From contig NZ_OY776488.1 of assembly GCF_963675635.1 (NCBI RefSeq), forward strand, positions 248,001-312,000: DNA of 64,000 nt, in the 5' to 3' direction. A program made the translations under genes and the position numbers. This DNA comes from an uncultured Pseudodesulfovibrio sp. (lineage in GTDB: Bacteria > Desulfobacterota > Desulfovibrionia > Desulfovibrionales > Desulfovibrionaceae). The notes below the pieces were generated by a model. That model worked only from the letters and a program-made list of their open reading frames with translations, had not been told where the DNA came from and ran no database searches. Of the stretch, positions 10,122 through 27,275 are shown piece by piece (position 1 is the stretch's first letter; the number at the start of each line of letters is the position of its first letter).

Positions 10122-10152
10122 GAAAAGGCATGGCAGCACTATGCATAATTCG

Positions 10153-10183
10153 GCCCCTGCACCATGTGGTGCAGGGGCTTTTT
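10153..10183 (+). terminator. Intrinsic terminator after the kinase gene
   Basis: A perfect 11-bp stem (10153-10163 with 10168-10178) closes on a 4-nt loop and is followed by TTTTT. It lies 31 bases after the kinase stop and ends the first + strand block. Confidence 0.93.
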
Positions 10184-10225
10184 CGGGGCGTTTGTGCGGT
10201 ACCCCGGAGGAAGGGCAGTTCGGAA

Positions 10226-10843
10226 CTATTCCGAAGCTGCCTGTGCCGAGACATAGGGTGTGGGGAAAGGCGGCCCTTCATGTTCATGGGCGCCCAGTGA
10301 GAGTTCCCGTCTGACTTCATCAAGGTCGATGACACGGGGTGCAACCAGTGTGTAACCGGAAGCGTCACACCAATCGTGGTTTGTGGCGAATGTATTGTTG
10401 TAGCGAATTTCATCAAGGATGAAGTAGCCAGTCTCGCCCATAATCCTGTCCCATTGGTGAACCATGAATTCAAATCCTGACGGGTCGAAGGCTTCTTTTG
10501 TCCTCCATTTCCATGAGAACTTACAGAGTTCATTGTCAAAGCCGAGGACACACAGGTATTTGGCCTTGCTGTCCAGATACATCCTGCGTCGTATCTTCAA
10601 TGGATCGGCTGTGATTGTATTCGTGTCGAAGGCAACGGGGTTGCCGTCCACTGTTACTTGAATATGGCATTCTTCATCAATGCGCATACCCCACGTCGCA
10701 GTGTTTCCCTTGCGCCACCATTCCAGAGCTTTCATGGTGTACACGTCCGATCCGTGCTTATTGATGAGGCTCGCAGTTTTTTGGGATATTGGATGCAAAG
10801 CAAGATCACAGGAATGACCGTGTACTGTAAAAATGATTTCCAT
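10226..10843 (-). CDS. Hypothetical protein (205 aa)
   Basis: A cytoplasmic protein of 205 residues with no signal peptide or membrane helix and no recognised family. It is rich in Trp, His and charged residues; its C-terminal third (DLDEVRRELSLGAHEHEG) is polar. A strong AAGGAG lies about 8 bases upstream of the start, and it runs opposite to both neighbours, so it is a monocistronic gene. Base composition does not differ obviously from the neighbours. Its existence is well supported; its function is unknown. Confidence 0.7.
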   Translation of the reverse strand: MEIIFTVHGHSCDLALHPISQKTASLINKHGSDVYTMKALEWWRKGNTATWGMRIDEECHIQVTVDGNPVAFDTNTITADPLKIRRRMYLDSKAKYLCVLGFDNELCKFSWKWRTKEAFDPSGFEFMVHQWDRIMGETGYFILDEIRYNNTFATNHDWCDASGYTLVAPRVIDLDEVRRELSLGAHEHEGPPFPTPYVSAQAASE

Positions 10844-11414
10844 TATGAATTCTCCTTGTCGGTGGATTAATTTTCAACAATATCCTCCAGAGTTTGCACA
10901 GGACGTGCCTCATATTTAAAGGATATGACTTTGCACATCATAGCTAGTTGAATATATTACATGATATTTGATGAGAAAAATGGATGCGGCAGAGAGGCTT
11001 CTTCTAAGCCGAGTCTGAAAGCGCGATATTGCGAGATGCTTGCCAGGTTTTGCACACTGACTTTCGTGTAAGTAGTGTCATTTGATTGCGCCTTGAACCA
11101 AGGCACGGCAATAGGATCGGAAGGCTGCCGGAAAGCCGGGGCATATGGCATTTAATGTGCATTGTTTTGAGAGGGACGGCGCATGATTCGTCGCTTCTGT
11201 TGACGCGATTTGAAGGGAAGCGTATATTGTGCCCGTTTGAGCATGATGCCATGTATCTTGTTGAAAAATGGAAAGGATCAGTGTCGTAAATCCTAATGGA
11301 TTGTTGGGGCTTTAATTATGTCGCGCACAGCATAATTCTATGTAATAAGTCCGATGAAGTTGTGTTTAACTGTGGATGCAATGCCAGGATTAACTGTTCT
11401 GAATGAGAAGGTTC
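10844..11414. other. Intergenic region, ~570 bp, no gene seen
   Basis: A divergent spacer between the hypothetical gene and the molybdenum operon. It is more AT-rich than the flanks and holds only short frames without ribosome-binding sites or recognisable products. No tRNA, terminator or long repeat was found. Its length suggests room for several regulatory sites upstream of the mop promoter. Confidence 0.4.
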
Positions 11415-11504: not shown

Positions 11505-12521
11505 ATGAAAACCGTTCACGTTCACGACGCTGTCGGCATGGTGCTGTGCCATGACATGACGAAGATTGTTCCCGGAGAAACCAAGGGTCCCGCCTTCAAG
11601 AAGGGACATGTGATTGCAGAGAGCGATATCCCCGCGCTTCTGGAAATTGGCAAGGAGCATATTTATGTGCTCAATCTGGAAAAGGGGAGTATCCATGAGA
11701 ATGAGGCGGCGGAGCGCATTTCAAAGGCCGCTGTCGGACCCGGTATCACGCTTTCTGAAGTCAGTGAGGGTCGTATAAATTTTGAGGCTTCACCCGGTCT
11801 GCTCGATGTAAACATCGAGGCCCTGAATCGTATTAATTCCATCGAAGAAGTCGTACTCGCAACCATGCATAATGGTCAGCAGGTGACACAGGCGCGTCCT
11901 GTGGCCGGTACTCGTGTGGTTCCGTTGGTTATCGATGAGAAAAAGATAGAGCAGGTTGAGGCCATCTGTGCCGAATATCCATACGTGGTCGGCATCCGTC
12001 CCTTCAAACATCACAATGTCGGACTCGTCACCACCGGCAGCGAAGTGTTCCATGGACGTATTACGGACAAGTTCGGTCCGGTCATCCGCAAAAAGTTTTC
12101 AAAACTCGGTTCCACGGTCATGGATCAGCGTTTGACCTCTGATGATCCGTCCATGACCCGCGATGCCATTCTGGCCTTCATGGCTGAAGGTGCCGAGATG
12201 GTGGTGGTCACGGGCGGCATGTCCGTTGACCCGGACGACCAGACTCCCACGGCTATTCGTGCCACAGGGGCTGAGGTTATAACGTATGGCTCACCTACAT
12301 TCCCGGGCGTCATGTTCATGATCGCCATGTTGGACGGTCTGCCTATTCTTGGTTTGCCCGGGTGCGTTATGTACTACCGGGCATCAATTTTTGATCTTGT
12401 GGTGCCTCGCCTGCTGGCCGGCGAAGAAATCACCCGTGAAGACATTGTAGCTTTGGGGCATGGCGGTTTTTGTGCGGCCTGCGACGTCTGTCGCTATCCA
12501 ATTTGCCCCTTTGGAAAATAG
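11505..12521 (+). CDS. Molybdopterin-binding (MoeA/MogA-like) protein
   Basis: A 338-residue protein. Its second half is a MoCF-biosynthesis (molybdopterin-binding) domain, with TTGSEV, a Ser/Asp-rich SDDPSM stretch and VVVTGGMSVDPDDQTP matching the ligand loops of MogA/MoeA. The first half resembles the short N-terminal module of stand-alone molybdopterin-binding proteins. The C-terminus has four cysteines (CAACDVCRYPIC) that could bind metal. The start at 11505 is chosen because MKTVHVHDAVG is the usual beginning of this family and GGAG lies 10 bases upstream; an in-frame ATG at 11403 lies upstream of the promoter. It precedes mop by 67 bases and probably handles molybdopterin or molybdenum insertion for Mop. 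Confidence 0.85.
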   Translation: MKTVHVHDAVGMVLCHDMTKIVPGETKGPAFKKGHVIAESDIPALLEIGKEHIYVLNLEKGSIHENEAAERISKAAVGPGITLSEVSEGRINFEASPGLLDVNIEALNRINSIEEVVLATMHNGQQVTQARPVAGTRVVPLVIDEKKIEQVEAICAEYPYVVGIRPFKHHNVGLVTTGSEVFHGRITDKFGPVIRKKFSKLGSTVMDQRLTSDDPSMTRDAILAFMAEGAEMVVVTGGMSVDPDDQTPTAIRATGAEVITYGSPTFPGVMFMIAMLDGLPILGLPGCVMYYRASIFDLVVPRLLAGEEITREDIVALGHGGFCAACDVCRYPICPFGK

Positions 12522-12588
12522 GTGCTTATCCCTCCGCCACTCGGCGGCGTGAACCTGCGACAGTTACACACCAAGGAGGAATACTGTC

Positions 12589-15306
12589 ATGATTAAATTG
12601 AACCTCACCGTGAATGGTGCTCCCAAACAGGTGATTTGCGAAAAGGACGACAAACTTTCGTCGATCCTGCGTGAAAGCCTCGGGCTTACCAGCGTGAAAA
12701 TCGGTTGTGGAACCGGACAATGCGGTAGCTGTTCCGTTATCGTCGATGACAAGCTGGTCCGCTCCTGTTCCATGAAAATGAGCAGGGTCAAGGACGGCGC
12801 AACCATTTTGACTACCGAGGGTATTGGTACTCCCGACAATCTGCATCCCATCCAGATGTCCTGGATAGCCAACGGTGGCGCTCAGTGCGGTTTCTGCACC
12901 CCGGGCTTCATTGTCTCCTCGTATGCCCTGTTGCTGGCTAATCCCAGTCCGACTCGTGAAGATATCCGCGATTGGTTCCAGAAATATCGCAACGCCTGCC
13001 GTTGCACTGGTTACAAGCAATTGGTCGACTCCGTCATGGACGCCGCCGCTGTTATGCGCGGTGACATGACCATGGATGAGCTGGCATTCCAGATTCCCGA
13101 AGATGGGCGTATCTGGGGCACCAAGTATCCCCGTCCGACCGCCGTGGCCAAGGTCACCGGCACGTTGGACTACGGTGCAGACCTCGGTATCAAGATGCCC
13201 GAAGGTACGCTCAAGTGCGCTTTGGTTCAGGCCGAAGTCTCGCATGCGAAGATCCTGTCCATCGACACTACCGAAGCCGAAGCCATGCCCGGTGTGGTCA
13301 AGGTCGTCACGCACAAGGATGTCAAAGGCAAAAACCGCATAACGGGTCTGATCACCTTCCCCACCAACAAGGGTGACGGCTGGGATCGTCCCATTCTGTG
13401 CGATGAAAAGGTCTTCCAGTACGGTGACGCCATCGCTATCGTCTGCGCTGATACCGAAAAGAATGCCAAGGCGGCTGCCGCCAAGGTCAAAGTCGAGCTG
13501 GAGCGCCTGCCCGAGTACATGAGCGCACCTGCCGCCATGGCTGACGACGCCATTGAGATTCATCCCGGCACGCCTAACGTCTATTATATCCAGAAGATTG
13601 CCAAGGGCGAGGAAACTGCTCCTATTTTCGATAAGGCCGATGTGGTTGTCGAGGGTGATTATTTCACTACCCGCCAGCCCCACATGCCCATCGAGCCGGA
13701 TGTCGGATTCGCTTATCTGGATGACGACGGCAAACTGTGCATCCATTCCAAATCCATCGGTCTGCATCTGCATTTGTATATGATCGCTCCCGGCCTCGGT
13801 GTTGAGCCTGAGAACCTGGTCATGGTGCAGAATCCCACCGGCGGTACGTTCGGTTACAAGTTCTCCCCGACTATGGAAGCCTTGGTCGGTGCTGCCTGTC
13901 TGGCTACCGGCAAGCCGGTCTTCCTGTGCTATGACTGGTATCAGCAGCAGACCTACACTGGTAAGCGTTCGCCTCAGTTCACCTCCGTACGTATGGCGGC
14001 GAGCAAGGACGGCAAGCTGCTCGGCATGGAAACCGACTGGACTGTCGACCATGGTCCATACTCCGAGTTCGGTGATCTGCTGACCCTGCGCGGCGCCCAG
14101 TTCATCGGTGCCGGGTACAATATCGACAATATTCGCGGCGAAGGCCGGACTGTCTGCACCAACCATGCATGGGGTGCCGCTTTCCGTGGTTACGGCGGAC
14201 CTGAAGCCGAATTCCCCTCTGAGACACTGATGGATGAACTGGCTGAAAAGCTCGGTATGGACCCCTTGGAGCTTCGCTACAAGAACATATATCGTGAAGG
14301 TTCCACGACTCCCACGGGTTGTGATCCCGAGGTGTATTCCCTGCCTGAGATGTTCGACATTCTTCGTCCCAAGTACGAGGAAGCCAAGAAAAAGACTGCC
14401 GCCAACTCCACCGCTGAAATCAAACGCGGTGTGGGTATCGCCCTTGGTGTATACGGCTCCGGTCTTGACGGCCCGGACACCGCTGAAGCAGATGTTCGCC
14501 TGAACGAAGACGGCACTGTGACGGTCCTGACCTGTTGGCATGACCATGGACAGGGCGCCGACATGGGCGTGCTGGGTACAGCGCATGAATCCCTGCGTCC
14601 TCTGGGCCTTGCCCCTGACCAGATTCATTTGATCCTGAATGACACCCGCTACTGCCCCAACGGCGGTCCGGCTGGTGGCTCCCGCTCTCAGGTTGTTGTA
14701 GGCAACTCCATCAAGGTCGGCTGCGAAATGCTGATGAGCGCCATGCTCAAGCCTGACGGGTCCTATCGCACTTATCAGGAAATGATTGATGAGAACATTG
14801 ACCCTGTCCAGCATGGCAAGTGGACCGCTCCGGCCAATGATTGTGATGAAAACGGTCAGGGCAAACCCTTTGCCTGTTACATGTATGGTCTGTGCATGGC
14901 CGAAGTGGCCGTTGAAATCGCCACTGGTCAGACCACGGTTGAGAAGATCACCTTCATTGCCGACATCGGCAAGGTCAACAACGTCCTGGTCGTTGATGGC
15001 CAGATCTACGGCGGTGTTGCCCAGGGTATCGGTCTGGCCCTGTCTGAAGATTATGAGGACATCAAGAAGCACTCCACCATGAAGGGTGCCGGATTCCCGT
15101 ACATCAAGCAGATTCCGGACGATATCGAGATCATCTATGTCGAGACTCCGCGTCCTGACGGTCCGCATGGCGCCTCCGGCGTTGGCGAAGTCCCGCTGTG
15201 TTCTCCGCATCCGGCGATCCTCAACGGTATCTATAACGCATGCGGTGTCCGCATCCGTGAGCTGCCCGCTTTGCCTGAAAAGGTGCTGGCCGGTTTGAAA
15301 GGTTAA
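12589..15306 (+). CDS. mop: Molybdenum aldehyde oxidoreductase
   Basis: A 905-residue xanthine-oxidase-family enzyme that oxidises aldehydes to carboxylic acids with a molybdopterin cytosine dinucleotide cofactor. The N-terminal plant-type [2Fe-2S] domain has C40, C45, C48 and C60; the second cluster has C100, C103, C137 and C139. These are the same positions as in D. gigas MOP (907 aa). The molybdopterin domains follow, with GGTFGYK, FRGYGGPEA and the catalytic Glu at E867 in GASGVGEVPL (E869 in D. gigas). There is no FAD domain, as in D. gigas. AAGGAGGAA gives a very strong ribosome-binding site, and codon use is more biased than in the neighbours, consistent with high expression. A terminator follows, so the accessory genes downstream may be expressed at a lower level. 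Confidence 0.97.
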   Translation: MIKLNLTVNGAPKQVICEKDDKLSSILRESLGLTSVKIGCGTGQCGSCSVIVDDKLVRSCSMKMSRVKDGATILTTEGIGTPDNLHPIQMSWIANGGAQCGFCTPGFIVSSYALLLANPSPTREDIRDWFQKYRNACRCTGYKQLVDSVMDAAAVMRGDMTMDELAFQIPEDGRIWGTKYPRPTAVAKVTGTLDYGADLGIKMPEGTLKCALVQAEVSHAKILSIDTTEAEAMPGVVKVVTHKDVKGKNRITGLITFPTNKGDGWDRPILCDEKVFQYGDAIAIVCADTEKNAKAAAAKVKVELERLPEYMSAPAAMADDAIEIHPGTPNVYYIQKIAKGEETAPIFDKADVVVEGDYFTTRQPHMPIEPDVGFAYLDDDGKLCIHSKSIGLHLHLYMIAPGLGVEPENLVMVQNPTGGTFGYKFSPTMEALVGAACLATGKPVFLCYDWYQQQTYTGKRSPQFTSVRMAASKDGKLLGMETDWTVDHGPYSEFGDLLTLRGAQFIGAGYNIDNIRGEGRTVCTNHAWGAAFRGYGGPEAEFPSETLMDELAEKLGMDPLELRYKNIYREGSTTPTGCDPEVYSLPEMFDILRPKYEEAKKKTAANSTAEIKRGVGIALGVYGSGLDGPDTAEADVRLNEDGTVTVLTCWHDHGQGADMGVLGTAHESLRPLGLAPDQIHLILNDTRYCPNGGPAGGSRSQVVVGNSIKVGCEMLMSAMLKPDGSYRTYQEMIDENIDPVQHGKWTAPANDCDENGQGKPFACYMYGLCMAEVAVEIATGQTTVEKITFIADIGKVNNVLVVDGQIYGGVAQGIGLALSEDYEDIKKHSTMKGAGFPYIKQIPDDIEIIYVETPRPDGPHGASGVGEVPLCSPHPAILNGIYNACGVRIRELPALPEKVLAGLKG

Positions 15307-15321
15307 TTCGTAACATCAAAC

Positions 15322-15359
15322 AGGAGCGGTCTTTGCTTCGGCATGGACCGCTCCTTTTA
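15322..15359 (+). terminator. Terminator (possibly leaky) after mop
   Basis: A 10-bp stem (15322-15331 with 15346-15355) with a 14-nt loop is followed by a short T-run. The next gene starts only 23 bases later in the same direction, so partial read-through is likely. Confidence 0.8.
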
Positions 15360-15381
15360 GTTGAGAGACATCGGGGCGATT

Positions 15382-17634
15382 ATGGAACAGGCTGATCTGA
15401 GAAAATTGGAAAGCAGGTGTATCCAGGAGGAAGCGCCCAAATGCGTTGCTGCCTGTCCTTTACATGTTGATGCGCGCACGTTTTGTTCTCTCGTGGCGCA
15501 ACGTCGCTGGGACAAGGCGTGGCAGGTGCTTGCCAAGACCATGCCGTTGCCCGGTGTGCTGGCGCGGTTGTGTGACGGGCTCTGCAAAGTCGATTGTGTG
15601 CGCAAGGACGCCGGTGGCGCCATTGAAATGGGACTGCTGGAGAGATTCTGCGCCGAGAACGCCAAGCCTGTGGCCCCGCCCCGGCCTTTACCTTCACGCG
15701 GCAAGTCCGTGGCTGTCCTCGGCGGCGGCATGATCGGCCTGTGTGGCGCATGGGAAATGGCGCGCAGAGGTTTTGATGTCTCTCTCCATTGTGCGGTATT
15801 GGGCGAAGGGTTACCCGAACTCCCCGAAGGCGTGCTCGATAAGGAGCTGGCGAGCCTTGAAAAACTGGGAGTCGTCATTCACAGCGGCGAGAATTTGACT
15901 CCTGAAATCTTGACTTCACTCATTGCCGAGAAGGACGCCGTCTTCATTGATTCGGCCTCTATACCCTCCGAGTGCACCGTGGACTGTGACGACCCGGATT
16001 CATTGACGCTGGGGACGACCCGGATCGGTGTCTTTGCCAGCCGTGCCGATGAACATTCTGCTGTTTTGCAGGCTGCTGCCGGTCGTCGCGCCGCCAATTC
16101 CATCGAGCGGTTCACGCAGGGGGTATCCATGGTCACAGGTCGTGAGCTGGAAGGGCCGTACGCATCCCGGCTGTTTACCAGCCTGGATACAATCGATTCG
16201 GTCCCGCCTGTTGCAAGTGTTGACGGGTACTCCGAAGAGGATGCGCGTGATGAGGCGAAACGGTGCATCCAGTGCGAATGCCTTGAGTGCGTGAAAGGGT
16301 GCGAATACCTGCGGCATTACAAATACTATCCCAAGGTATACGCCCGACAGATTTACAACAATGAATCCATTGTCATGGGAACGCGGCAGGCCAACACCAT
16401 GATCAATTCCTGCACGTTGTGCGGACAGTGCGAAGTCCTGTGCCCTGAAGATTTTTCCATGGCCGACGTGTGCCTCGAAGCACGGCAGAATCTGGTCGAG
16501 CGGGGGAATATGCCGCCGTCCGCCCATGAGTTCGCCTTGCGCGACATGACTTTTGCCGATGGTGAGAGATGCGCGATGCACCGCCATGCTCCCGGTCAAT
16601 CCTCCAGTGAATATCTGTTTTTCCCGGGCTGTCAGTTGACGGCATCCGATCCTGACGGCGTGGAAGCGGCCTACGCCGACCTGCGTGATCGACTCGGCAG
16701 TGTCGGGTTGATGCTCCATTGTTGCGGCGCACCCGCTGAATGGTCCGGGCGCCGTACCATGTTTGAGGAATCCATGGCTGTGCTCAAGGGTAAATGGGAG
16801 AGTCTGGGCAGCCCGCGAATTATCGCGGCTTGTCCCACCTGCCTCAAGACATTACGCCAGGGGTTGCCCGATGCCGAGATCGTTTCTCATTGGTCTATTC
16901 TCCGGGCAATCGGTTTGCCTTCCGGGGTGATTCCGAAGGAGTGTACGTTGGCAGTCAACGATCCCTGTGCTGCCAGACATGACGCCATACTGCGCGAAGA
17001 CGTCAGGGTCTTGTTGGATCAGTTACAGGTGGTTATGACCGAGCCGGAATATAACGGCGAGATTGCTCATTGCTGCGGCTACGGTGGTCTGTTGTCCGAG
17101 GCTAATCCGCAACTCGGCATGGCTGTTGCGGAAGTTCGCGCCAGAGGGGCGGACGAGGATTTTGTCACGTACTGCATCATGTGCCGTGACATGATCGTCA
17201 AAACCGGCAAACGGGCGATACACGTCTATGATCTGCTCTATTCGAATCAGGATGATCCCGGTTCGCGGCCTTCGCCCGGATATTCGGCGCGGCGTGAGAA
17301 CCGTGTCCGCCTTCGAGAACGACTGCTGCGCGACCAGTGGCGGCAGGATGAAACACACGCTGCCGAACCGTATGAGGCCATTGAGTTTGCTATGACGGAT
17401 CATGCCGCACGCATCATGGAAGAGCGGCGTATCCTGAAAAGCGACGTGCAGAAGGTTCTGCTTCAGGCTCGGGAGTCCGGCAAACGACTCGTCAACAGTG
17501 ACACAGGGCATTTTCTTGCGTCATTCAGGCCTGTGGTCGTGACTTACTGGGTCGAATATGAACCTAAAGACGACGGTTTCCTCGTGCATAACGCATGGTG
17601 CCACCGAATGAAGATACGGGGGGCGCAGTCATGA
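15382..17634 (+). CDS. Dicluster-binding flavoprotein-like / CCG-domain electron-transfer protein, mop partner
   Basis: A 750-residue multidomain protein. Residues ~10-90 form a GltD-type dicluster region (APKCVAACPLHVD, then LCDGLCKVDC). Residues ~107-265 form a shortened pyridine-nucleotide oxidoreductase fold with VLGGGMIGL; the usual FAD-binding Gly-Asp near GRRAANSIERF is degenerate (VFASRADEHS). Two more Cys clusters follow (CIQCECLECVKGC; CTLCGQCEVLCP), then two CCG modules of heterodisulfide-reductase type (FFPGC...HCCG and CCGYGG). A ~100-residue C-terminal domain with VVVTYWVEY and HRMKI is fused at the end. It matches the family NCBI names a pyridine nucleotide-disulfide oxidoreductase/dicluster-binding protein, found next to mop (recalled). 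Likely role: electron transfer with Mop. ATG 15382 is preferred over an upstream TTG. Confidence 0.85.
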   Translation: MEQADLRKLESRCIQEEAPKCVAACPLHVDARTFCSLVAQRRWDKAWQVLAKTMPLPGVLARLCDGLCKVDCVRKDAGGAIEMGLLERFCAENAKPVAPPRPLPSRGKSVAVLGGGMIGLCGAWEMARRGFDVSLHCAVLGEGLPELPEGVLDKELASLEKLGVVIHSGENLTPEILTSLIAEKDAVFIDSASIPSECTVDCDDPDSLTLGTTRIGVFASRADEHSAVLQAAAGRRAANSIERFTQGVSMVTGRELEGPYASRLFTSLDTIDSVPPVASVDGYSEEDARDEAKRCIQCECLECVKGCEYLRHYKYYPKVYARQIYNNESIVMGTRQANTMINSCTLCGQCEVLCPEDFSMADVCLEARQNLVERGNMPPSAHEFALRDMTFADGERCAMHRHAPGQSSSEYLFFPGCQLTASDPDGVEAAYADLRDRLGSVGLMLHCCGAPAEWSGRRTMFEESMAVLKGKWESLGSPRIIAACPTCLKTLRQGLPDAEIVSHWSILRAIGLPSGVIPKECTLAVNDPCAARHDAILREDVRVLLDQLQVVMTEPEYNGEIAHCCGYGGLLSEANPQLGMAVAEVRARGADEDFVTYCIMCRDMIVKTGKRAIHVYDLLYSNQDDPGSRPSPGYSARRENRVRLRERLLRDQWRQDETHAAEPYEAIEFAMTDHAARIMEERRILKSDVQKVLLQARESGKRLVNSDTGHFLASFRPVVVTYWVEYEPKDDGFLVHNAWCHRMKIRGAQS

Positions 17635-17846
17635 GTGTTATCAGAGTGCCGGAAGCGGATGTCACAGGATGGAAGTGTGCGGCCTGTGACAAGGAACTGA
17701 CCATGGCTCCGGTGGAATTGGAATATCTCGATTCATTGTTCAATGTGGAACTGCCGACCTGCCCGTCGTGCGGGTTCGTGTTCATCCCTGAAGGGTTGGC
17801 GCTTGGCAAGATGAATCAGGTCGAGCATCTGCTGGAGGACAAGTAG
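17631..17846 (+). CDS. Small double-CxxC redox/zinc protein, DVU_1557-like
   Basis: A 71-residue protein with two CxxC pairs (CAAC and CPSC) about 30 residues apart, as in rubredoxin-like or zinc-ribbon folds. It starts in an ATGA overlap with the upstream gene, and a G-rich ribosome-binding site is at 17618-17624; an ATG 36 bases earlier would lack one. It corresponds in position and size to the DVU_1557-type small redox protein of mop clusters (recalled). An electron carrier or metal chaperone for the Mop maturation set is the likely role. Confidence 0.75.
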   Translation: MSVIRVPEADVTGWKCAACDKELTMAPVELEYLDSLFNVELPTCPSCGFVFIPEGLALGKMNQVEHLLEDK

Positions 17847-17848
17847 CC

Positions 17849-18508
17849 GTGCCTGAACAGTGTGTGCCGTTGTGGGAGAAACCGACTCTGCGAGCCGTTG
17901 CCGGGGAGACCTTGCGGCCCGGCGGTTTTGCCGTCACGGATCGGGCTGCCGAATTGATTGGGGTGATTCCCGGTTGGCGTGTGCTTGACGTGGGCAGCGG
18001 ATTGGGAGCTACGGTCGGGCGATTGCGTTCCCGATTCGGTGCTGATGCCTTGGGCGTTGAACACTCCCGGGCGCAGATTGACCGCAGTAGTGAAGCTCAT
18101 GTCGTTCAGGCGCGAGGGGATCTCCTGCCCTTTCGGAATGAAGAATTCAATGCCATATTTTGTGAGTGTGTGCTGTCGTTGTTTGTTGAGCCTCGGCAGG
18201 GACTTGTAGAGTTCTGCCGTGTACTTCAGCCGCAGGGTTATCTTGTTCTTGCTGATCTGCATGCCGAGGAAAGGGGATTGCCGAACGGGAATTCCTGTGT
18301 CGGACGTGCCGTGCCGCTCTCTGTCACGCGGGAGCAGGTGGAGGCATGTGGGTTTACAGTGCGGCTGGTTGAAGATCATTCCCGGCAGTTAAAGGATTTG
18401 GCGGCGAAGCTGATGTTCGCCGGAGGGCAGACAACCGGGGCATGTACTGGTCGTCTCGGGTATTATTTGATGATTGCGCAAAAAGGGGGAGAGCCTCATG
18501 TTGGATGA
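17849..18508 (+). CDS. SAM-dependent methyltransferase of the mop cluster, DVU_1556-like
   Basis: A 219-residue class I methyltransferase. The SAM-binding motif VLDVGSGLGATVG is at ~48-60, an acidic GVEH follows at the end of the second strand, and FCECVLSLFVEP corresponds to motif IV. The start is GTG with GGAGG 11 bases upstream and only 2 bases after the previous stop. It overlaps the next gene by 11 bases. In related genomes the same position holds a family whose substrate is unknown (recalled as TrsM or DVU_1556 family). The radical SAM protein next door suggests both act on one substrate. Confidence 0.82.
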   Translation: MPEQCVPLWEKPTLRAVAGETLRPGGFAVTDRAAELIGVIPGWRVLDVGSGLGATVGRLRSRFGADALGVEHSRAQIDRSSEAHVVQARGDLLPFRNEEFNAIFCECVLSLFVEPRQGLVEFCRVLQPQGYLVLADLHAEERGLPNGNSCVGRAVPLSVTREQVEACGFTVRLVEDHSRQLKDLAAKLMFAGGQTTGACTGRLGYYLMIAQKGGEPHVG

Positions 18509-18953
18509 TACAGGTCTCAAAATGATGGAGCTGGGCGGCAAGGGATATTGTTGCAGTCAGATCCTGATTGTGTTGGCTCTTGACGAAATAGGGCGGGAAA
18601 ATCCGGATCTGGTCCGGGCTGCTTCCGGTTTGTGTAACGGACTTGGCGATTGTTCCGGCCTGTGTGGCGTCTATACTGGTGCGGCAATACTGCTCGGGTT
18701 GTATGGCGGTAAAGGTGAAGACATAGAAGAGCCAGTCGATGTACTGCCTCTGATGCTTGAAGAGTTGCGCGACTGGTTTGCCGCGGCAACGACCCAGTAT
18801 GGCGGCATGGCGTGCAGGGATATTCTGGATGGGCGATGCGGTCAGCCGGATGCCGCCCGGTGTGGCGGTTTGGTGTCTGCGGCCTATGCGCAGGTTCGTG
18901 AAATTCTGGTGGATAACGGATTGGACCCCTCCGAAGGACGTTCCCTGTCATGA
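18498..18953 (+). CDS. C_GCAxxG_C_C family protein, DVU_1555-like
   Basis: A 151-residue helical protein of the C_GCAxxG_C_C redox-associated family: GYCCSQ near the N-terminus, then GLCNGLGDCSGLCGVYTG with the conserved Cys/Gly pattern, and further cysteines at CRDILDGRC and ARCGG. ATG 18498 follows a GGGGGAG site and overlaps the methyltransferase end. Members are often exported or cytoplasmic redox proteins of unknown chemistry; no signal peptide is seen here. Cysteine spacing suggests a disulfide relay or bound metal. Confidence 0.85.
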   Translation: MLDDTGLKMMELGGKGYCCSQILIVLALDEIGRENPDLVRAASGLCNGLGDCSGLCGVYTGAAILLGLYGGKGEDIEEPVDVLPLMLEELRDWFAAATTQYGGMACRDILDGRCGQPDAARCGGLVSAAYAQVREILVDNGLDPSEGRSLS

Positions 18954-20296
18954 GCCGTATCCCGCGAAGCGTCTGTCCTGTCTGCCTGAAACCGATCCCG
19001 GCGGAACATGAAACCATCGGGGACGAAACATTTCTGGTGAAGACATGCCCGGACCATGGTGAATTCAGAACCGTTGTCTGGCGGGGACAGCCGGCTTTCG
19101 AGGATTGGTCGCGGGTGAAGATTCCTTCGCTGCCGAAAACTCCGTTTACCCGTGTGGACAAGGGCTGCCCGCTGGATTGCGGGTTGTGCGACGCCCATCG
19201 TCAGCATACCTGTACGGCGATCATTGAAGTAACATGGCGGTGTGACCTTGGCTGTCCGGTGTGCTTTGCCTCGTCTGGTAAAAGTGCGCTACCTGATCCG
19301 ACTCATGAAGAACTCGGCTTCCTGTTTGATCGCGTCAAAGAAGCGTCCGGTTATTGTAATATCCAGCTTTCCGGCGGTGAGCCAACGGTGCGGGATGACT
19401 TGCCTGACGTGATTCGGCTGGCCAAATCCAGGGGATTCCCTTTTATTCAGCTCAATACAAACGGGCTGCGTATCGGACGAGAAAAGGGGTATGCCGCTAC
19501 GCTGGCCGAGGCCGGACTTGATTCCGTTTTTTTTCAATTCGACGGTTTGAGTGACGATGTCCATGAGACCCTGCGTGGTCGCCCTCTGGTTGATCTCAAA
19601 CTTGCCGCTTTACATGCCTTGGCTGAAGCAGGTGTCGGCGTGGTGTTGGTCCCTACGATCATACCGGGTGTTAACGAGCATGTTCTGGGTGCCATTGTGG
19701 AATTTGCGGCTGAACATTCACCGCATGTGCGCGGTGTGCATTTTCAACCCGTGAGTTATTTCGGGAGATATGCCCAATCGCCGACTGACGCACAGCGCAT
19801 CACCTTGCCGGAAATCATGAGGCTCCTTGAGAAACAGACCGGGGGAGCACTTCAGGCAAATCATTTCATGCCGCCGGGCTGTGAACATTCGCATTGCTCG
19901 TTTCACGCCAATTATATGGTGACTGAGAGCGGACGGTTGCAGAAACTTTCGGCAGACGGCAAGTGCGGGTGTAAGCCCCGTCCAGCGTCAGAGGGCGCGG
20001 ACAAGGCCAAGGCGTTTGTGAAACGCCAATGGGCGGCACCGGGAAAAATATTGCCCATGGCAGACGGTCCGGATGCCCTTGACGCCTTTATCAGTCGTGC
20101 GGCAACACATACTCTGGCCGTGTCCGCTATGGCGTTTCAGGATGCCTGGACTCTTGACTTGGAGCGCCTCAAGGGGTGTTGTATTCACGAAGTCTCTCCG
20201 GATGGGAGATTGATTCCGTTTTGTGCGTACAACCTGACCTCCATGGATGGAGAAACCCTCTACAGGGGGAAATGTCATGGATCTTCCAGCTCTTGA
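18950..20296 (+). CDS. Radical SAM protein of the mop cluster (TrsS-like)
   Basis: A 448-residue radical SAM enzyme with C98, C102 and C105 in the CxxxCxxC motif (RCDLGCPVCF), GGEPT at 142-146 and a TIM-barrel core. The N-terminus has a zinc-like pair (CPVC) plus C33, then CPLDCGLC and C88. The C-terminal part has more cysteines (GCEHSHC, KCGCK, GCC). The layout resembles the tetraether-synthase-like radical SAM proteins. NCBI names the mop-linked family radical SAM (seleno)protein TrsS (recalled); here no in-frame TGA is used. It overlaps the upstream gene by ATGA. The substrate is unknown; modification of a cofactor or thiol carrier is an inference. Confidence 0.88.
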   Translation: MSRIPRSVCPVCLKPIPAEHETIGDETFLVKTCPDHGEFRTVVWRGQPAFEDWSRVKIPSLPKTPFTRVDKGCPLDCGLCDAHRQHTCTAIIEVTWRCDLGCPVCFASSGKSALPDPTHEELGFLFDRVKEASGYCNIQLSGGEPTVRDDLPDVIRLAKSRGFPFIQLNTNGLRIGREKGYAATLAEAGLDSVFFQFDGLSDDVHETLRGRPLVDLKLAALHALAEAGVGVVLVPTIIPGVNEHVLGAIVEFAAEHSPHVRGVHFQPVSYFGRYAQSPTDAQRITLPEIMRLLEKQTGGALQANHFMPPGCEHSHCSFHANYMVTESGRLQKLSADGKCGCKPRPASEGADKAKAFVKRQWAAPGKILPMADGPDALDAFISRAATHTLAVSAMAFQDAWTLDLERLKGCCIHEVSPDGRLIPFCAYNLTSMDGETLYRGKCHGSSSS

Positions 20297-21584
20297 CCAA
20301 TGGCTTGTTCGTCGCATGAAGTGGCGTAAGAACGCACCGCCTACAGCTCGGGATATTCGCCAATGGCAGCTTGCCCGGTTGCGTGACCTGGTGACACATG
20401 CACAGGTCAACAGTCCGTTTTATGCGCGTCATCTTGCGGGTATCGACGCCTTGGATATACACTCTGTAGAAGCCTACTCCCGTTTGCCCATGATGACGTC
20501 CGAGGACATACGTGCCGGAGGTGAGCACCTGCTCTGCGTGTCACAGGATGAGATCGCACGGGTTGTGACCTTGACGACTTCCGGCACTACCGGGCAGCCC
20601 AAACGGATTTTTCATACGGCTGAGGACCTTGATGCTACAGTCGATTATTTCGGGTGGGGCATGAGGAATCTGGTAGAGTCCGGACAGACCGCACTTGTCC
20701 TCATGCCGGGTGATAGACCGGGCGGGGTGGGGCGACTGCTGATTGATGCCCTTGATCGGATAGGTGTACGAGCCGTTACACATGGCGTCATGGATGACGT
20801 TGACAGCGCGCTCGACCAATGCCTTGCAGAAGACGCAAGATGTATTGTCGGGTCGTCGGCTCATGTGAATATGCTCGCCAACGCGTGGGAGAAGCGGAGA
20901 CTGCCTTTTGGTCGAATCCAATCGGTTCTTCTGTGTTGGGATGCGGCACCGAATGCTGTGGCGTTTACTGTTGAAAGAATTTTCGGCTGTCGGGTGTTGT
21001 GTCACTGGGGCATGATCGAAACCGGCCTTGGCGGGGCGGTGGAGTGCGCTCCTCACTCGGGTATGCATTTGCGCGAAACGGATGTTTTCATGGAGATAGT
21101 TGACCCTGAAACGGGTACAGCCTTGCCGGAAGGGCTGTTTGGTGAAATGGTCGTCTCCACTCCGCTTCGTTTAGGGATGCCGCTTATTCGCTACAGGACC
21201 GGCGACATAGGGAGAATACTCCCGGACCTGTGTGATTGTAAAAGTCCTTTGCGCCGACTTGATACACAAATATTTCGAAGGGAAGATGGAGTGACTGTCG
21301 GGGCGGGGCTATTGACGCTGCGGGAATTGAATGAGGTCTTGTACGGAGTGCCGGGGCTGGAAGATTTTGGTGTATGGTGCGTTGACGGGCGGTTGCGAGT
21401 CATGGCGTGCGGGGATCAAGGTGTACTGCCCGGACTTGTTCAGGGTGCCCTTGAAGCTATGCCGGTTGTTGAGCAGGGGATTGAAGAGGGACTGCTCTCG
21501 TTGGATATAATAATTAAAGATGACGGAACCCCGGCTGTCCCGGGGCTGGGAAAAAGATCCATACAGAGAGAACTGGAGAATTGA
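20277..21584 (+). CDS. AMP-dependent CoA-ligase-like protein, DVU_1553 family
   Basis: A 435-residue adenylate-forming enzyme of the phenylacetate-CoA-ligase type: P-loop LTTSGTTGQPKR at ~100-110, a HWGMIETGLGG motif in the middle, and YRTGDIG before the C-terminal subdomain. The first residues (VRRMKWRKNAPPTARDIRQWQLARLRDL) are typical of the PaaK branch. ATG 20277 with AGGGGGA just upstream is chosen; it overlaps the radical SAM gene by 20 bases. A CoA ligase is unexpected in molybdenum-cofactor assembly. It could activate an acid produced by Mop, or a carboxylate used by the methyltransferase/radical SAM pair. Confidence 0.85.
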   Translation: MDLPALDQWLVRRMKWRKNAPPTARDIRQWQLARLRDLVTHAQVNSPFYARHLAGIDALDIHSVEAYSRLPMMTSEDIRAGGEHLLCVSQDEIARVVTLTTSGTTGQPKRIFHTAEDLDATVDYFGWGMRNLVESGQTALVLMPGDRPGGVGRLLIDALDRIGVRAVTHGVMDDVDSALDQCLAEDARCIVGSSAHVNMLANAWEKRRLPFGRIQSVLLCWDAAPNAVAFTVERIFGCRVLCHWGMIETGLGGAVECAPHSGMHLRETDVFMEIVDPETGTALPEGLFGEMVVSTPLRLGMPLIRYRTGDIGRILPDLCDCKSPLRRLDTQIFRREDGVTVGAGLLTLRELNEVLYGVPGLEDFGVWCVDGRLRVMACGDQGVLPGLVQGALEAMPVVEQGIEEGLLSLDIIIKDDGTPAVPGLGKRSIQRELEN

Positions 21585-21587
21585 ATC

Positions 21588-22574
21588 ATGAAAGCGTTTG
21601 TGCGTTCCATATGTGAACTTATCGGACAGAATGAAACCTTTGTCATGGCTACGGTGGTGGAAAGCTCCGGCTCGACTCCGCGATCTTCCGGGGCGAAGAT
21701 GGTTGTGCGCGGTGATGGCTCCATCCTCGGCACTGTGGGGGGAGGATTGGTTGAAGCCCGGGCCTGTCAGGACGGCCTGACCATGCTCAGCGCGGGGGAT
21801 GGAACCGCCAGTTTGACTTTTGTGGACATGACGCAGGAACTCGCGGCCAATTCCGACATGATCTGCGGCGGGGGGTTGAGCGTGTTGCTTGAAGTCATAG
21901 AGCCGGATGGCCCCTGTGCCGTGGCATACCTTGAAGTGAATGAACTGCTGCGGCGCGGCATCCGTTCTTCACTGGTTTCGACGTTTGAAGGAGTCACGAG
22001 TCTTTGTGGCGTGGAATATCAGGTCCTGCGGGATGAAGCTGACGGAGATACGCCTGTTTTTGAAAAGAATTCTAACGGCATACGGATTTCCGAACCATTT
22101 ATTCCTCCCGCGTCCCTGTATATCTTCGGGGCAGGGCATGTCTCGCTGTTCACGGCCCGTACTGCCGCCATGATAGGGTTCAGGACCGTGGTTCTTGATG
22201 ATCGTGAAGATTTCGCCAACACCGAACGGTTTCCCGAGGCTGACGAAGTCGTTGTCCTGCCTGGTTTTGCCGGGTGCTGCGATGCACTGGGTATGGATGA
22301 AAATTCGTATGTCATCATCGTGACCAGAGGCCACATGCATGATCGTACTGTGCTGGCTGAAGCCTTGCGGACCAAGGCTCGTTACGTGGGCATGATCGGC
22401 AGCAAGAAGAAACGCGACAAAATTTACGAATCGCTTTTGGCTGACGGGTTCACGCAGCAGGACATCAACAGGTGTCATTGCCCCATCGGGCTGACCATCG
22501 GTGCGCAGACGCCTGAAGAGATAGCTGTCTCCATCTGCGGTGAACTGATTCAGGTGCGGTCTGGGGCCGCATGA
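21588..22574 (+). CDS. XdhC/CoxI-family molybdenum hydroxylase maturation protein
   Basis: A 328-residue protein. The N-terminal XdhC/CoxI domain has ESSGSTPRSSGAKM, GGGLVEA and the MICGGG motif; the C-terminal Rossmann domain has YIFGAGHVS and VGMIGSKKKR. XdhC proteins bind molybdenum cofactor, help its sulfuration and insert it into hydroxylases of the xanthine oxidase family, so Mop is the obvious client. It follows the ligase by 3 bases and overlaps the next gene by ATGA. Confidence 0.92.
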   Translation: MKAFVRSICELIGQNETFVMATVVESSGSTPRSSGAKMVVRGDGSILGTVGGGLVEARACQDGLTMLSAGDGTASLTFVDMTQELAANSDMICGGGLSVLLEVIEPDGPCAVAYLEVNELLRRGIRSSLVSTFEGVTSLCGVEYQVLRDEADGDTPVFEKNSNGIRISEPFIPPASLYIFGAGHVSLFTARTAAMIGFRTVVLDDREDFANTERFPEADEVVVLPGFAGCCDALGMDENSYVIIVTRGHMHDRTVLAEALRTKARYVGMIGSKKKRDKIYESLLADGFTQQDINRCHCPIGLTIGAQTPEEIAVSICGELIQVRSGAA

Positions 22575-23695
22575 GCACTCTTGCCGCGATAATACCGGCG
22601 GCAGGCCTTTCTTCCCGCATGGGGGAGTTCAAACCCCTGCTGCCGTTGGGAGAAGGTACGGTGCTGTCGCAGTGTGTCGATCTGTTCCGGAAAAACAACA
22701 TTGAACAGATCGTCGTGGTCACCGGCAAACAGTGTGACTACGTGGCCGCGGCGGCTCACCAGGCCGGGGCAGTCGCCGTGCATAATCGGAATTTTGAGCA
22801 GGGCATGTATTCCTCGGTACTGACTGGTGTCCGTGCTTTGAAGGAAAACGTGTCGGCGTTTTTCATGCTTCCTGTGGATATCCCGCTGGTCAGGCCGGAA
22901 ACGGTTGGTCGTCTTATCGAGGAATTCACGCAGTCTGCTCCATCCATCCTCTATCCCCGCTTTCGAGATGAGCGCGGTCATCCGCCGCTGATCAGCCGGA
23001 GTCTGGTGCCGGTCATTCTGTCCCATGACGGAACGGGCGGCCTGCGGACAGTGCTGGACAACCATGAATCCGGGGCGCGAGATCTGGACGTGGCGGATTT
23101 CGGGACGGTTCATGATCTGGACCGCCCGGCTGATTATTCGCTGGCCCGAACCCTGGCAGATGTCCGGTATCCGACCAATGAAGAGTGCTGTCAGTTGTGG
23201 GACATGTATTCCGTGCCTATAAATATTGTTCGTCACTGTCAGGCCGTATCTCGTGTGGCCGAGGTCCTGTGCGAACGATTGAACTGTCAGCGCAACGGCA
23301 ATTGTCTTGATATCGACCTGGTTCGAGGCGCGGCTCTGACCCATGATATAGGCAAAGGCACCAGACGGCATGAGATCGTGGGTGCCGAACGATTGCAAGC
23401 ACATGGCTTTCACGATGCTGCGACTATTGCTCTTGAACATTTTGATCTGACGCTTTCGCCGGAGGAGCCGATAACCGAAAAGGAAGTTGTGTTTCTTGCC
23501 GACAAGCTCGTTTGCGGAGAGTCTCCGGTTCCCCTCAAGGTCCGGTACATGAACAAAATAGAACTCTACCGCCATGAACCGGGGGTGGAAGGGGCCATTC
23601 TTGATCGATTGGAGCGTGCGACCGATATCATGACCCGGTTTGATCGGGAGATGGGCGTTTGTGCCGAACAACTGGCGCAGGATGTTCTGGCATGA
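22571..23695 (+). CDS. MobA/MocA-like nucleotidyltransferase fused to an HD domain
   Basis: A 374-residue fusion. Residues ~1-200 are a MobA-like NTP transferase (IPAAGLSSRMGEFKPLLPLG nucleotide loop, LPVDIPLV metal site), the type that adds CMP to molybdopterin to make the MCD cofactor used by Mop. Residues ~220-374 are an HD phosphohydrolase-like domain (RHCQAVS, LTHDIGKG, LEHFD). The fusion pairs cofactor nucleotidylation with a possible nucleotide hydrolase, which could recycle or regulate MCD. It corresponds to the DVU_1551 NTP-transferase family (recalled). It is coupled by ATGA overlaps on both sides. Confidence 0.88.
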   Translation: MSTLAAIIPAAGLSSRMGEFKPLLPLGEGTVLSQCVDLFRKNNIEQIVVVTGKQCDYVAAAAHQAGAVAVHNRNFEQGMYSSVLTGVRALKENVSAFFMLPVDIPLVRPETVGRLIEEFTQSAPSILYPRFRDERGHPPLISRSLVPVILSHDGTGGLRTVLDNHESGARDLDVADFGTVHDLDRPADYSLARTLADVRYPTNEECCQLWDMYSVPINIVRHCQAVSRVAEVLCERLNCQRNGNCLDIDLVRGAALTHDIGKGTRRHEIVGAERLQAHGFHDAATIALEHFDLTLSPEEPITEKEVVFLADKLVCGESPVPLKVRYMNKIELYRHEPGVEGAILDRLERATDIMTRFDREMGVCAEQLAQDVLA

Positions 23696-24306
23696 TCGTG
23701 CTTATGCGACATGCGCAGACTGAGGGCGGTGCCGGGCGATGTATCGGCAGGACGCCGGTGCCGTTGTCCGATGCAGGGCGTGAGCGGGCGCGGCATATTG
23801 TTGCGTCTCTGCGCAGTGTCGGATTCAAACGGTTATGCGCAAGTCCTGCACAACGGGCGCAGGATACCCTTGATCCGTTGGCTCGGGTTCTCGATATGAC
23901 CGTGGAAACGCTTCCCGCTCTGAATGAGATTGATATGGGAAAGTGGGACGGACTTCCCTTTGAAGACGTGCGTCGCTTGTATGCGGATGGGTATGCTGAG
24001 CGCGGAGGTCGCTTCGGTTCGTTTCGTCCACCGCTTGGCGAGAGTTTCATGGATGTCGCGGACCGCGCATTGGTTGCCCTGAATGAACTGGCGCACGGTG
24101 CGCTTCCGGTTCTGGTCGCGACCCACGCGGGGGTGCTGCGTTCGGTACTCTGCCGGGTTACAGGCCACCCCATGGATGACCTGTTTCATTTCAAACCCGA
24201 CTATGCGCATTGTGTCCTTTTACGGTCAGGGACAAACGGACTGGAGTTGATCGCGTCCGACGTGTCCCCAGATGACCTGCCGACTTTTTTTGATTCGAAT
24301 TCTTAG
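23692..24306 (+). CDS. Histidine phosphatase (phosphoglycerate-mutase-like) protein
   Basis: A 204-residue histidine phosphatase: catalytic RHAQTEG near residue 6, a second Arg in CASPAQRAQDT, Glu in NEIDMGKWDG and the second His in VATHAGVLR. The CobC/alpha-ribazole phosphatase branch looks similar, but the position at the end of the mop cluster suggests a role in cofactor assembly or clean-up. ATG 23692 overlaps the upstream stop. It ends in a 4-base tail-to-tail overlap with the DUF364 gene of the mod operon. Confidence 0.85.
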   Translation: MIVLMRHAQTEGGAGRCIGRTPVPLSDAGRERARHIVASLRSVGFKRLCASPAQRAQDTLDPLARVLDMTVETLPALNEIDMGKWDGLPFEDVRRLYADGYAERGGRFGSFRPPLGESFMDVADRALVALNELAHGALPVLVATHAGVLRSVLCRVTGHPMDDLFHFKPDYAHCVLLRSGTNGLELIASDVSPDDLPTFFDSNS

Positions 24307-25028
24307 GCGCTCTGCGGACAGAATCGATCCCACCCCATGAGCGCGGCCCCTCCTGAAATGGTCGTGCCGTAAAAAAGCACAGGCTTTTCGGTCAGGAACT
24401 GGTCAATGGAGCTGTTCGCCAGCGTTGTGCCCGTGACGAGCAGCAGATCGCACCAGTCAATGGCCTCTGCCGTGGCCTCGCCGCCTTCCACGAGCACACC
24501 CCGTTTTGTTTGTCCGATGTTGTCCGGATCAAGGTCGATCAGTCGCACTTCGGTTTCCCTGTTCAGGACTTCGGCGAGTGCAGGCTGGAATCCGATAATG
24601 GTGATGCGGCATTGCCCGTAATTTTTTTTGATGTGATCGAAGATCGTTTTCGAACACTCCTTGGGGCCGCAGTCCTTGCAGTGGATCGTCCCTTTCGCCA
24701 ACCCGAGCGAACGAGAGACTGCATTGAGTGTGGCCACGAATACAGCACGGTTGAAGTTATTGTCCAAAGTCAGTGCGGCTACATCGCTCAATGTCCCAGT
24801 ATAATTGCCATAGTTGTCGGTAAATGCTTGTCCTCGTTCTCCCCTGAACATGGCTTCCATCAACTTCTCTTTGCCCTGCTGAATGGGGAAGTCATTTTCT
24901 TCCGGGCTGCCGATGGCCTCCTTGACTGTCAGAGGACCGGCAGAAACTGTGATGCTTTCATTGAGAATGTTCTCTTTTCCCCAGAGAAGAAGGGCTTTGT
25001 CACGGACGATTTCCAGAGTGGTTTTCAT
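24303..25028 (-). CDS. DUF364/Rossmann-like putative metal-chelation protein of the mod operon
   Basis: A 241-residue protein of the DUF364 type (putative heavy-metal chelation domain with a Rossmann-like second half): VGxxTGTLSDV-type residues near 75-85, KDCGPKECSKTIFDHI with two cysteines, ITIIGFQPALAEVL and LLLVTGTTLANSSID. It is the last gene of the modCAB operon, 8 bases after modB. Family members are often found near metal transport and molybdoenzyme genes. Handling of molybdate or tungstate after import is plausible but not shown. Confidence 0.78.
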   Translation of the reverse strand: MKTTLEIVRDKALLLWGKENILNESITVSAGPLTVKEAIGSPEENDFPIQQGKEKLMEAMFRGERGQAFTDNYGNYTGTLSDVAALTLDNNFNRAVFVATLNAVSRSLGLAKGTIHCKDCGPKECSKTIFDHIKKNYGQCRITIIGFQPALAEVLNRETEVRLIDLDPDNIGQTKRGVLVEGGEATAEAIDWCDLLLVTGTTLANSSIDQFLTEKPVLFYGTTISGGAALMGWDRFCPQSA

Positions 25029-25036
25029 GTATGCTC

Positions 25037-25705: not shown

Positions 25706-25710
25706 CTTTT

Positions 25711-26433: not shown

Positions 26434-26444
26434 GGTGTTTCCTC

Positions 26445-27137: not shown

Positions 27138-27228
27138 GGTTTTCCATATCCTTTTAGGTGTCGGGGTAACATGCAGGCTTGTGTCATGATTACAATTTAC
27201 CTATGTTCTGTTCTGTTATTCGGCAACC

Positions 27229-27259: not shown

Positions 27260-27275
27260 TCAAGGGACCATATCA

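Follow-up and report, generated by a model that had tools for sequence, protein, structure and literature searches.

The window, a stretch of 64,000 nucleotides from contig NZ_OY776488.1 of an uncultured Pseudodesulfovibrio sp., carries on its forward strand a cassette in which a gene for a MoCF-domain protein is followed by mop, encoding a molybdopterin-dependent aldehyde oxidoreductase, and then by nine more genes. An earlier note on this DNA described nine same-strand genes behind mop with spacings from a 20-base overlap to a 3-base gap. This is correct from the dicluster gene onwards, the extremes being the overlap of the radical SAM (S-adenosylmethionine) and ligase-like genes and the gap between the ligase-like and xdhC genes; mop itself is separated from the dicluster gene by a larger gap of 75 bases. 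Gene starts are those chosen among the in-frame start codons.

The MoCF_biosynth-domain protein (11505..12521, +; PF00994, 85 bits) has a MoeA/Mog-like domain and is the one of ten proteins tested that passes no dedicated NCBIfam cut-off. Mop (12589..15306, +) scores 1680 bits against NF045668 (cut-off 1100) and has the [2Fe-2S] and molybdenum cofactor domains (PF00111, PF01799, PF02738, PF20256); its top PDB matches are the aldehyde oxidoreductases 1dgj and 1sij, and it falls below the cut-off for selenium-dependent xanthine dehydrogenase (TIGR03311, 405 bits vs 830). Downstream, all on the + strand, are genes for the dicluster protein (15382..17634; NF045663, 1000 bits; PF14691, PF13534, PF02754), a small CxxC..CxxC protein of the DVU_1557 family that is a candidate carrier (17631..17846; NF045645, 102 bits; PF24292), an ArsM-like SAM methyltransferase with a Cys pair, C107/C150 (17849..18508; NF045667, 199 bits), a C_GCAxxG_C_C (CGA) redox protein (18498..18953; NF045669, 173 bits; PF09719), the radical SAM protein TrsS, with metal-ligand residues of the type of tetraether lipid synthase (Tes) (18950..20296; NF045646, 686 bits, cut-off 490), a PaaK-like adenylate-forming (CoA-ligase-like) protein (20277..21584; NF045666, 436 bits), an XdhC-family maturation factor (21588..22574; NF045664, 415 bits), a MocA-like NTP transferase fused to an HD domain (22571..23695; NF045665, 428 bits; HD PF01966) and a histidine phosphatase (23692..24306). 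The nearest family of the phosphatase is alpha-ribazole phosphatase, with a score under the cut-off (TIGR03162, 127 bits vs 163, read from 23695). The view that the XdhC and MobA-like (here MocA-like) proteins are molybdenum-cofactor genes is supported by their families.

Because nine of the ten proteins tested, from Mop through the MocA-like protein, pass NCBIfam models of their own, the cassette families have already been catalogued by NCBI curators. A literature search found no functional study of these families and no paper on DVU_1551 or DVU_1553–DVU_1557; the names DVU1552, DVU1558, DVU1559 and DVU1560 led to three papers. A 2026 review names a 'Radical SAM selenoprotein TrsS', citing Haft and Tolstoy 2025 (PMC13188914), and the family, NF045646, is that of the TrsS in the window. 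The resemblance to the D. vulgaris DVU_1551–1559 region described in the earlier note holds for the names, DVU_1551–DVU_1557 being used for these families and DVU_1559 being an aldehyde oxidoreductase (PMC10920352); this agreement is one of names.

Co-occurrence with Mop and the division into two modules

In a phylum sample of 198 genomes, searched with NCBI's own models, Mop is present in 14 (13 over the cut-off, and G104, in which the gene is cut by a contig end). All 14 carry the TrsS, ligase-like, methyltransferase, CGA, DVU_1557 and dicluster families, and all six are over their cut-offs with the exception of the G104 methyltransferase (148 vs 155 bits). The suggestion that five genes of unknown chemistry (those for the radical SAM, methyltransferase, CGA, small CxxC and ligase-like proteins) co-occur with mop is thus borne out in every Mop genome of the sample, and the reverse pattern, with the five mostly occurring without mop, is not seen among the 198. 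TrsS, the methyltransferase and the ligase-like family have identical top 20 genomes, 14 of which have Mop. TrsS is over its cut-off in 19 of them, the other having a split gene (G039, 433 bits), the ligase-like family is over in all 20, and the methyltransferase is over in 18, with G104 and G131 (144 bits) just under. Matches beyond the top 20 are weaker, with TrsS in nine genomes (≤377 bits), the methyltransferase in 41 (≤106 bits) and the ligase in 122 (≤240 bits), and the agreement of three families on the same 20 genomes is more than chance. Five genomes (G033, G047, G089, G142 and G184) in which the top-scoring member of the Mop family is a sister molybdenum hydroxylase (741–809 bits) have no TrsS at E 1e-60, and the sole Mop-less genome (G040) among seven sampled from the window's own family also lacks TrsS.

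Mop gives no match at E 1e-200 in the other six of the 20 TrsS genomes (G039, G075, G108, G125, G131 and G152). Their loci (L060–L065) all have TrsS, the methyltransferase, DVU_1557 and the ligase, although in G075 the ligase is on another contig. All six show the 90-residue tail domain of the dicluster protein (a weak match in L060), and its CCG half matches strongly in four (L060, L061, L063 and L064), weakly in L062 (31 bits) and not at all in L065. CGA is present in L062 and L065, and none of the six has a listed match to XdhC, MocA-HD, MoCF or the phosphatase. Two Chloroflexota genomes with the Trs set (those of L120 and L126) also have no Mop-family match at E 1e-60. From the six genomes with TrsS, methyltransferase and ligase but without Mop we conclude that the cassette consists of two modules, one for molybdenum-cofactor maturation and a Mop-independent "Trs core". 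The same six of 20 genomes, together with L120 and L126, speak against the proposal that the whole set is a maturation cluster for Mop or its cofactor. The neighbours of several Mop-less Trs loci are sources of low-potential electrons; there are RACo-like genes near L063 and L064, a 2-hydroxyacyl-CoA-dehydratase-like protein and its activase near L061, and, among loci of the wider scan described below, a BadF ATPase near L141 and NuoE/NuoF-like genes near L120.

The wider scan covered species genomes with a TrsS alignment match and gave at least 575 confirmed relatives in many phyla, from which the best 80 loci were used. Within the fetched stretches TrsS is present at 80 of these, the ligase and DVU_1557 at 69 each, the dicluster protein at 68, CGA at 66, the methyltransferase at 65, Mop at 56, MocA-HD at 43, XdhC and the phosphatase at 35 each and MoCF at 23; these counts are not independent of their seeds, because the profile hidden Markov models were built from matches in the same loci that were later annotated. 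Of the 24 loci without Mop, many lie at the end of a contig; their genomes have Mop over the cut-off in 14 cases, at 1099.7 bits in G210 and as a high-scoring half-length piece in G218 and G200, with weaker relatives or nothing in the remaining seven. A tree of 98 TrsS sequences with two bacterial Tes-like proteins as the root spans Thermodesulfobacteriota, Bacillota, Chloroflexota, Pseudomonadota, Spirochaetota and Acidobacteriota and contains a Mop clade of 88 rows (support 95 in the Shimodaira–Hasegawa-like approximate likelihood-ratio test, SH-aLRT). That the remaining ten rows form one group is less sure because their support is 83. The TrsS proteins of the six Mop-less phylum genomes fall outside the Mop clade; two of the ten rows there are from genomes with Mop elsewhere (L155 and the L141 second copy), and six of the 88 rows inside it are labelled as having no Mop, among them L092, from G200 with its half-length piece. 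For six cassette proteins the correlations between distance matrices are 0.52–0.79, with 0 of 500 permutations as high, a test of congruence by permutation only, in which shared inheritance and shared function are not separated.

The dicluster protein and DVU_1557 behave as a hub that usually accompanies Mop. A sample of 186 genomes was drawn from a second class, to which G206 (the genome with L113, from Eubacteriaceae) belongs. Mop is over the cut-off in eight of these and below it in one. Of the 14 Mop places listed, 13 are over the cut-off and 13 have the dicluster and DVU_1557 genes. TrsS is within the fetched stretch at nine of the 14, and L186, one of the remaining five, runs up to the end of its contig. 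G311 has the full cassette at one Mop (L175) and two extra Mop copies (L179 and L180) with the dicluster and DVU_1557 genes only. In G217 the Mop-hub trio (L201) and the TrsS, ligase and methyltransferase genes (L144) are at separate loci, and G203 has a lone TrsS (L104) and three Mop-hub loci without TrsS (L190, L197 and L198), two of them at contig ends. A third set of 18 Mop stretches, including the earlier L078, has the dicluster gene in 13; among the five without it, three break off with their contig just after Mop, and L203 and L078 are not cut. With the hub usually beside Mop and the TrsS, methyltransferase and ligase genes not necessarily adjacent, the pattern is that expected of maturation in trans.

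Conserved residues of the Trs-core proteins

A PDB profile search with TrsS finds Tes/GDGT-MAS (7TOL), the enzyme type that couples membrane lipid chains in archaea, at E 8e-128. Tes has a rubredoxin iron site (C9-x2-C12-x20-C33-x2-H36), an N-terminal cluster ligated by C73, C77, C80 and a His, a radical SAM cluster in a CX3CX2C motif and a C-terminal cluster with a labile Met439, on which the substrate radical is stored as an S–C bond (PMC9433317). The corresponding TrsS residues are C9, C12, C33 and H36 at the rubredoxin site, C73, C77, C80 and H83 for Fe4S4-N, and C98, C102 and C105 for the radical SAM cluster; C316, C410, C425 and M394 pair with Cys and Met in the C-terminal region of Tes, the three Cys ligands being assigned by alignment with 7TOL. 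All of these are kept in 93 sequences (85 from the Mop clade and eight others), with the exception of one gapped row. TrsS therefore appears to share with Tes four metal sites at the same spacing and the labile Met, as well as the radical SAM family by profile. It departs from Tes in having no Tyr at the Tyr459 position in the rows listed and in its gene set with Mop and HdrB-like partners, and since it scores under the cut-off of the Tes model (NF045702, 356 bits vs 450), it is on sequence grounds a Tes-like enzyme and not a Tes. What the bacterial relatives of Tes catalyse is left open by the authors of the Tes study, which also reports that an earlier claim of pterin methylation for MJ0619 could not be corroborated (PMC9433317); because of this, the pterin methylation hinted at by the Pfam name HMPTM on TrsS was dropped. 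We note two bacterial Tes-like proteins elsewhere in the phylum (L034 1426–3114, −, and L030 1387–3039, +), which hint at possible bacterial membrane-spanning lipids; the L034 protein is over the NCBIfam Tes cut-off and adjoins a gene that reads like an acyltransferase.

TrsS also has an extra Cys relative to Tes near the C-terminal cluster, at position 311 (Cys in 50 of the 85 Mop-clade rows). In the L155 gene (near 9998–11278) the Cys of this PPGC motif, adjoining the cluster, is replaced by an in-frame TGA, which is likely to encode selenocysteine (PPGU). This is the only internal TGA of this kind in 98 TrsS stretches. Selenium as a general feature of the cassette was rejected, because the TGA codons of the other four TrsS rows and of eight methyltransferase rows are at or near the match end and the sole dicluster row with a TGA (L060) runs from one gene into the next.

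The dicluster protein has a GltD-like N-terminal flavin/Fe-S part, a ferredoxin dicluster, two CCG-type motifs and a C-terminal domain of ~90 residues. The cysteines of both motifs (C424, C454, C455, C491, C494 and C536, C571, C572, C605, C608) are conserved at 1.00 in 61 sequences, so that both are complete, as is typical of heterodisulfide-reductase B subunits (HdrB). The ferredoxin dicluster is likewise shared with HdrB/TfrB-type proteins, and the difference is the fusion to the flavin part and to the 90-residue domain. For the methyltransferase the nearest families outside its own are of the ArsM type. C107 is present in 82 of 82 sequences and C150 in 60 (17 of the rest being gaps), and an annotated ArsM has Cys at both aligned positions; in ArsM such Cys bind arsenic. 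The protein is, however, under every listed ArsM cut-off (NF040539, 49 vs 240 bits; NF008823, 31 vs 263 bits). Three of the cassette proteins thus point to chemistry at a thiol or other soft nucleophile. The ligase-like protein retains the adenylation core and is poorly conserved beyond residue 345 (84 sequences). The family has no conserved C-terminal catalytic domain of the PaaK type, and since this domain is also missing in some relatives, CoA ligase is not a safe label for it.

DVU_1557 appears to be a small Zn-ribbon or rubredoxin-like protein. Read to the stop codon, the Mop-type copies end in VExxLEDK-COOH (VEHLLEDK in the window, 17820..17843, +), and K(-1), E(-3) and E(-7) are present in 97 of 97 copies, which are not phylogenetically independent. 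These comprise 76 tails in a first sample, in which Leu(-4) is present in 75 and Asp(-2) in 73, all 13 in a Mop-centred second sample, and all eight complete copies in a third, where two further copies are cut. In ten other cassette families the commonest last residue has a frequency of 0.13–0.49, as against 1.00 here. The codons of the 76 tails are mixed (AAA 42 and AAG 34; GAG 48 and GAA 28), and at eight loci the tail is unchanged with the next recognised cassette gene 189–2757 bases away, although a nearer unrecognised open reading frame is possible; for both reasons a Shine–Dalgarno or codon constraint was rejected as the sole cause. We also note a second DVU_1557-like gene in the Mop-less genome G075 (L067 10069–10257, −), which is among Fe-S assembly genes.

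Two kinds of carrier protein offer analogies to DVU_1557, and not kinship. The LysW/ArgW carriers are small, with Zn-binding Cys and an invariant acidic C-terminus, and it is the final Glu that is loaded (PMC10433800). DVU_1557 has the Zn-type Cys (metal binding being predicted) and the conserved C-terminal tail, but its VExxLEDK with terminal Lys differs from the EDWGE motif and terminal Glu of the LysW/AmCP carriers, and no LysX-type ligase is among the cassette families. Pearlin pathways (TmoA etc.) use a carrier and an adding enzyme, with S-methylation and C-isopropylation on the C-terminus of the carrier in one of them (PMC9303977), a likeness in carrier, adding enzyme and site of chemistry; the cassette differs in its four-Cys candidate carrier and in having no PEARL or peptidase among its families. 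A match of DVU_1557 to MasE of alkylsuccinate synthase (E 0.02) is level with unrelated LIM and zinc-finger matches and was not used.

A possible function of the Trs core

The reading that we tentatively favour is that TrsS, the methyltransferase and the ligase-like protein modify DVU_1557 in trans, and that the resulting sulfur-bearing group serves the HdrB-like partner of Mop. One module would comprise Mop and its cofactor helpers (MoCF, XdhC, MocA-HD and the phosphatase), and the other the Trs core around the hub, which mostly travels with Mop as the TrsS, methyltransferase, ligase-like and usually CGA proteins act in trans. DVU_1557 would be the carrier, to whose tail the ligase-like enzyme attaches a small alkyl or acyl group. 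TrsS would then activate an inert C–H bond on the loaded group and, like Tes, form a C–S (or C–C) bond by means of its C-terminal auxiliary [4Fe-4S] cluster. The methyltransferase may cap or tune a soft nucleophile (S or Se). The thiol or disulfide that results would be reduced or oxidised at the CCG clusters of the dicluster protein, which would exchange electrons with Mop. In this scheme we infer the carrier role, product, attachment, sulfur chemistry, trans action, order of steps and direction of electrons. Four of its elements are held much more firmly than the model as a whole, namely the division into two modules, the usual company of hub and Mop, the invariant tail of Mop-type DVU_1557 and the Tes-type metal sites predicted in TrsS. 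The earlier note had considered a cofactor, a carrier thiol or the Mop protein as the target of a joint modification, and it is the invariant tail that favours the carrier among these. A more specific version, which we regard as rather unlikely, is that a lipoate-like organosulfur group on the LEDK tail is a post-translational cofactor built by TrsS, the methyltransferase and the adenylate-forming enzyme, which the HdrB-like protein uses with Mop and, elsewhere, with unrelated electron sources. If the hub is the true partner of Mop and carries an unknown group, the mass of this protein of 8 kDa would bring a new cofactor to light. The cassette also offers a first clue to what bacterial relatives of Tes do.

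Several observations weigh against modification of a carrier. DVU_1557, which NCBI calls a redox protein, may do no more than carry electrons in the manner of a rubredoxin, with its tail serving for docking, and kinship to LysW is not seen (Pfam at E 0.01, and nothing significant in PDB). One Mop-type tail is LEGK (L178), and the 11 Mop-less-type copies have Lys last in six and third from last in five. Mop genes without the hub nearby are known (L177 and L078), L203 has no dicluster gene in the 2.4 kb downstream, and eight of the 56 Mop loci in the wider scan lack at least one of the six core genes at the thresholds used, some of them at contig ends; one example is L089, which lacks DVU_1557, the methyltransferase and CGA. 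The C-terminal domain of the ligase is missing in some relatives of 341–381 residues (as measured from the profile match), several of them from Desulfovibrionaceae, which argues against ordinary adenylation in these. Lastly, the column of Tes Tyr459 (TrsS column 414, paired by counting on the TrsS/7TOL alignment) is not Tyr in the 90 of 93 rows that are listed, being V, E, I, T, S or Q in 82 of 85 Mop-clade rows (three are not listed) and V in eight of eight others; the Y459F variant of Tes is active (PMC9433317).

A possible, if doubtful, alternative takes the electron carrier further. DVU_1557 would pass electrons between Mop, the dicluster flavoprotein and TrsS, with its tail for docking, and TrsS, the methyltransferase and the ligase would make a diffusible redox cofactor or metabolite for the Mop system, much as the pyrroloquinoline quinone (PQQ) and mycofactocin cassettes adjoin their dehydrogenases. 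The protein is small, with four Cys and its NCBI name, and rubredoxin is among its non-significant profile matches; further, the dicluster protein adjacent to Mop has a GltD-like flavin part, and the Mop of D. gigas, the first enzyme of the xanthine oxidase family with a crystal structure, has no flavin domain and only a putative partner, flavodoxin (PMC10223205). However, 97 of 97 tails fixed to the last residue seem to exceed the need of a docking peptide, and no precursor peptide or exporter was noticed, no search having been aimed at either. If all cassette genes together matured Mop itself or its molybdopterin cofactor, this would account for the tight gene order and for the six families in 14 of 14 Mop genomes, but we consider it improbable. 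Mop-specific pterin maturation was rejected as the principal explanation because Trs loci exist without Mop, in the six phylum genomes and two Chloroflexota, and genomes with only the sister hydroxylase have no TrsS. The D. gigas structure (1.28 Å) is also described with molybdopterin cytosine dinucleotide (MCD), and the part of that description available to us mentions no unusual pterin or protein modification (PMC10223205).

The substrate class of Mop, the AraC-type regulators and a transporter that adjoin the extra Mop copies (AraC-type regulators at both L179 and L180) and a MaoC-like dehydratase gene between TrsS and the ligase in L120 would suit a catabolic pathway, in which the breakdown of a substrate by Trs enzymes would yield an aldehyde for oxidation by Mop and conversion to an acyl-CoA by the ligase. 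We think this quite unlikely, since the ligase lacks the conserved C-terminal domain of CoA ligases, Mop-hub copies occur without TrsS nearby, and no catabolic gene recurs among the non-core neighbours in 99 loci and the window. Tailoring of membrane lipids by a bacterial Tes is a far more distant prospect. It would follow from the Tes-like radical SAM sites of TrsS, but it is the L034 protein beside its acyltransferase-like gene that is over the Tes cut-off and TrsS that is under it, and partners such as Mop, the HdrB-like protein and the CxxC protein would be hard to explain in work on lipids.

Neighbouring genes

Non-core neighbours that recur in at least four loci (of 99 and the window) form nine clusters, the widest in 19 loci. 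They comprise ABC-transporter parts, a sigma-54 regulator, a MoeA-like/PBP protein, a class-V aminotransferase, a kinase of the type in the window and two small proteins without a Pfam match. The aminotransferase gene precedes trsS in some Bacillota cassettes (L093 8504–9950, L096 8517–9948, L150, L135 and L151), and four of these five also encode a partner of ~100 residues. A protein of ~238 residues with no Pfam match is encoded between DVU_1557 and the methyltransferase in two Mop-less clusters (L063 2010–2726, +, and L064 12467–13183, −).

In the window, one sigma-54 pattern was tried and has no match at ≤1 mismatch. The MoCF-domain protein (11505–12521) has a Cys-rich C-terminus, CAACDVCRYPICPFGK, several of whose last residues are common to 43% of 28 sequences at a fixed distance from the stop. 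At the other end of the cassette a convergent block (24303–27137, −) overlaps the end of the phosphatase gene by four bases and encodes ModA/ModB/ModC-like molybdate or tungstate transporter proteins, of which only ModA is over its cut-off, together with a 241-residue protein without an NCBIfam match at E 1e-5. Beyond this, the gene at 27087–28334 (+) encodes a protein whose N-terminal part resembles a tyrosine recombinase and is fused to molbindin (molybdenum-pterin-binding) domains, presumably a tungstate/molybdate regulator of the type found in Desulfovibrio.

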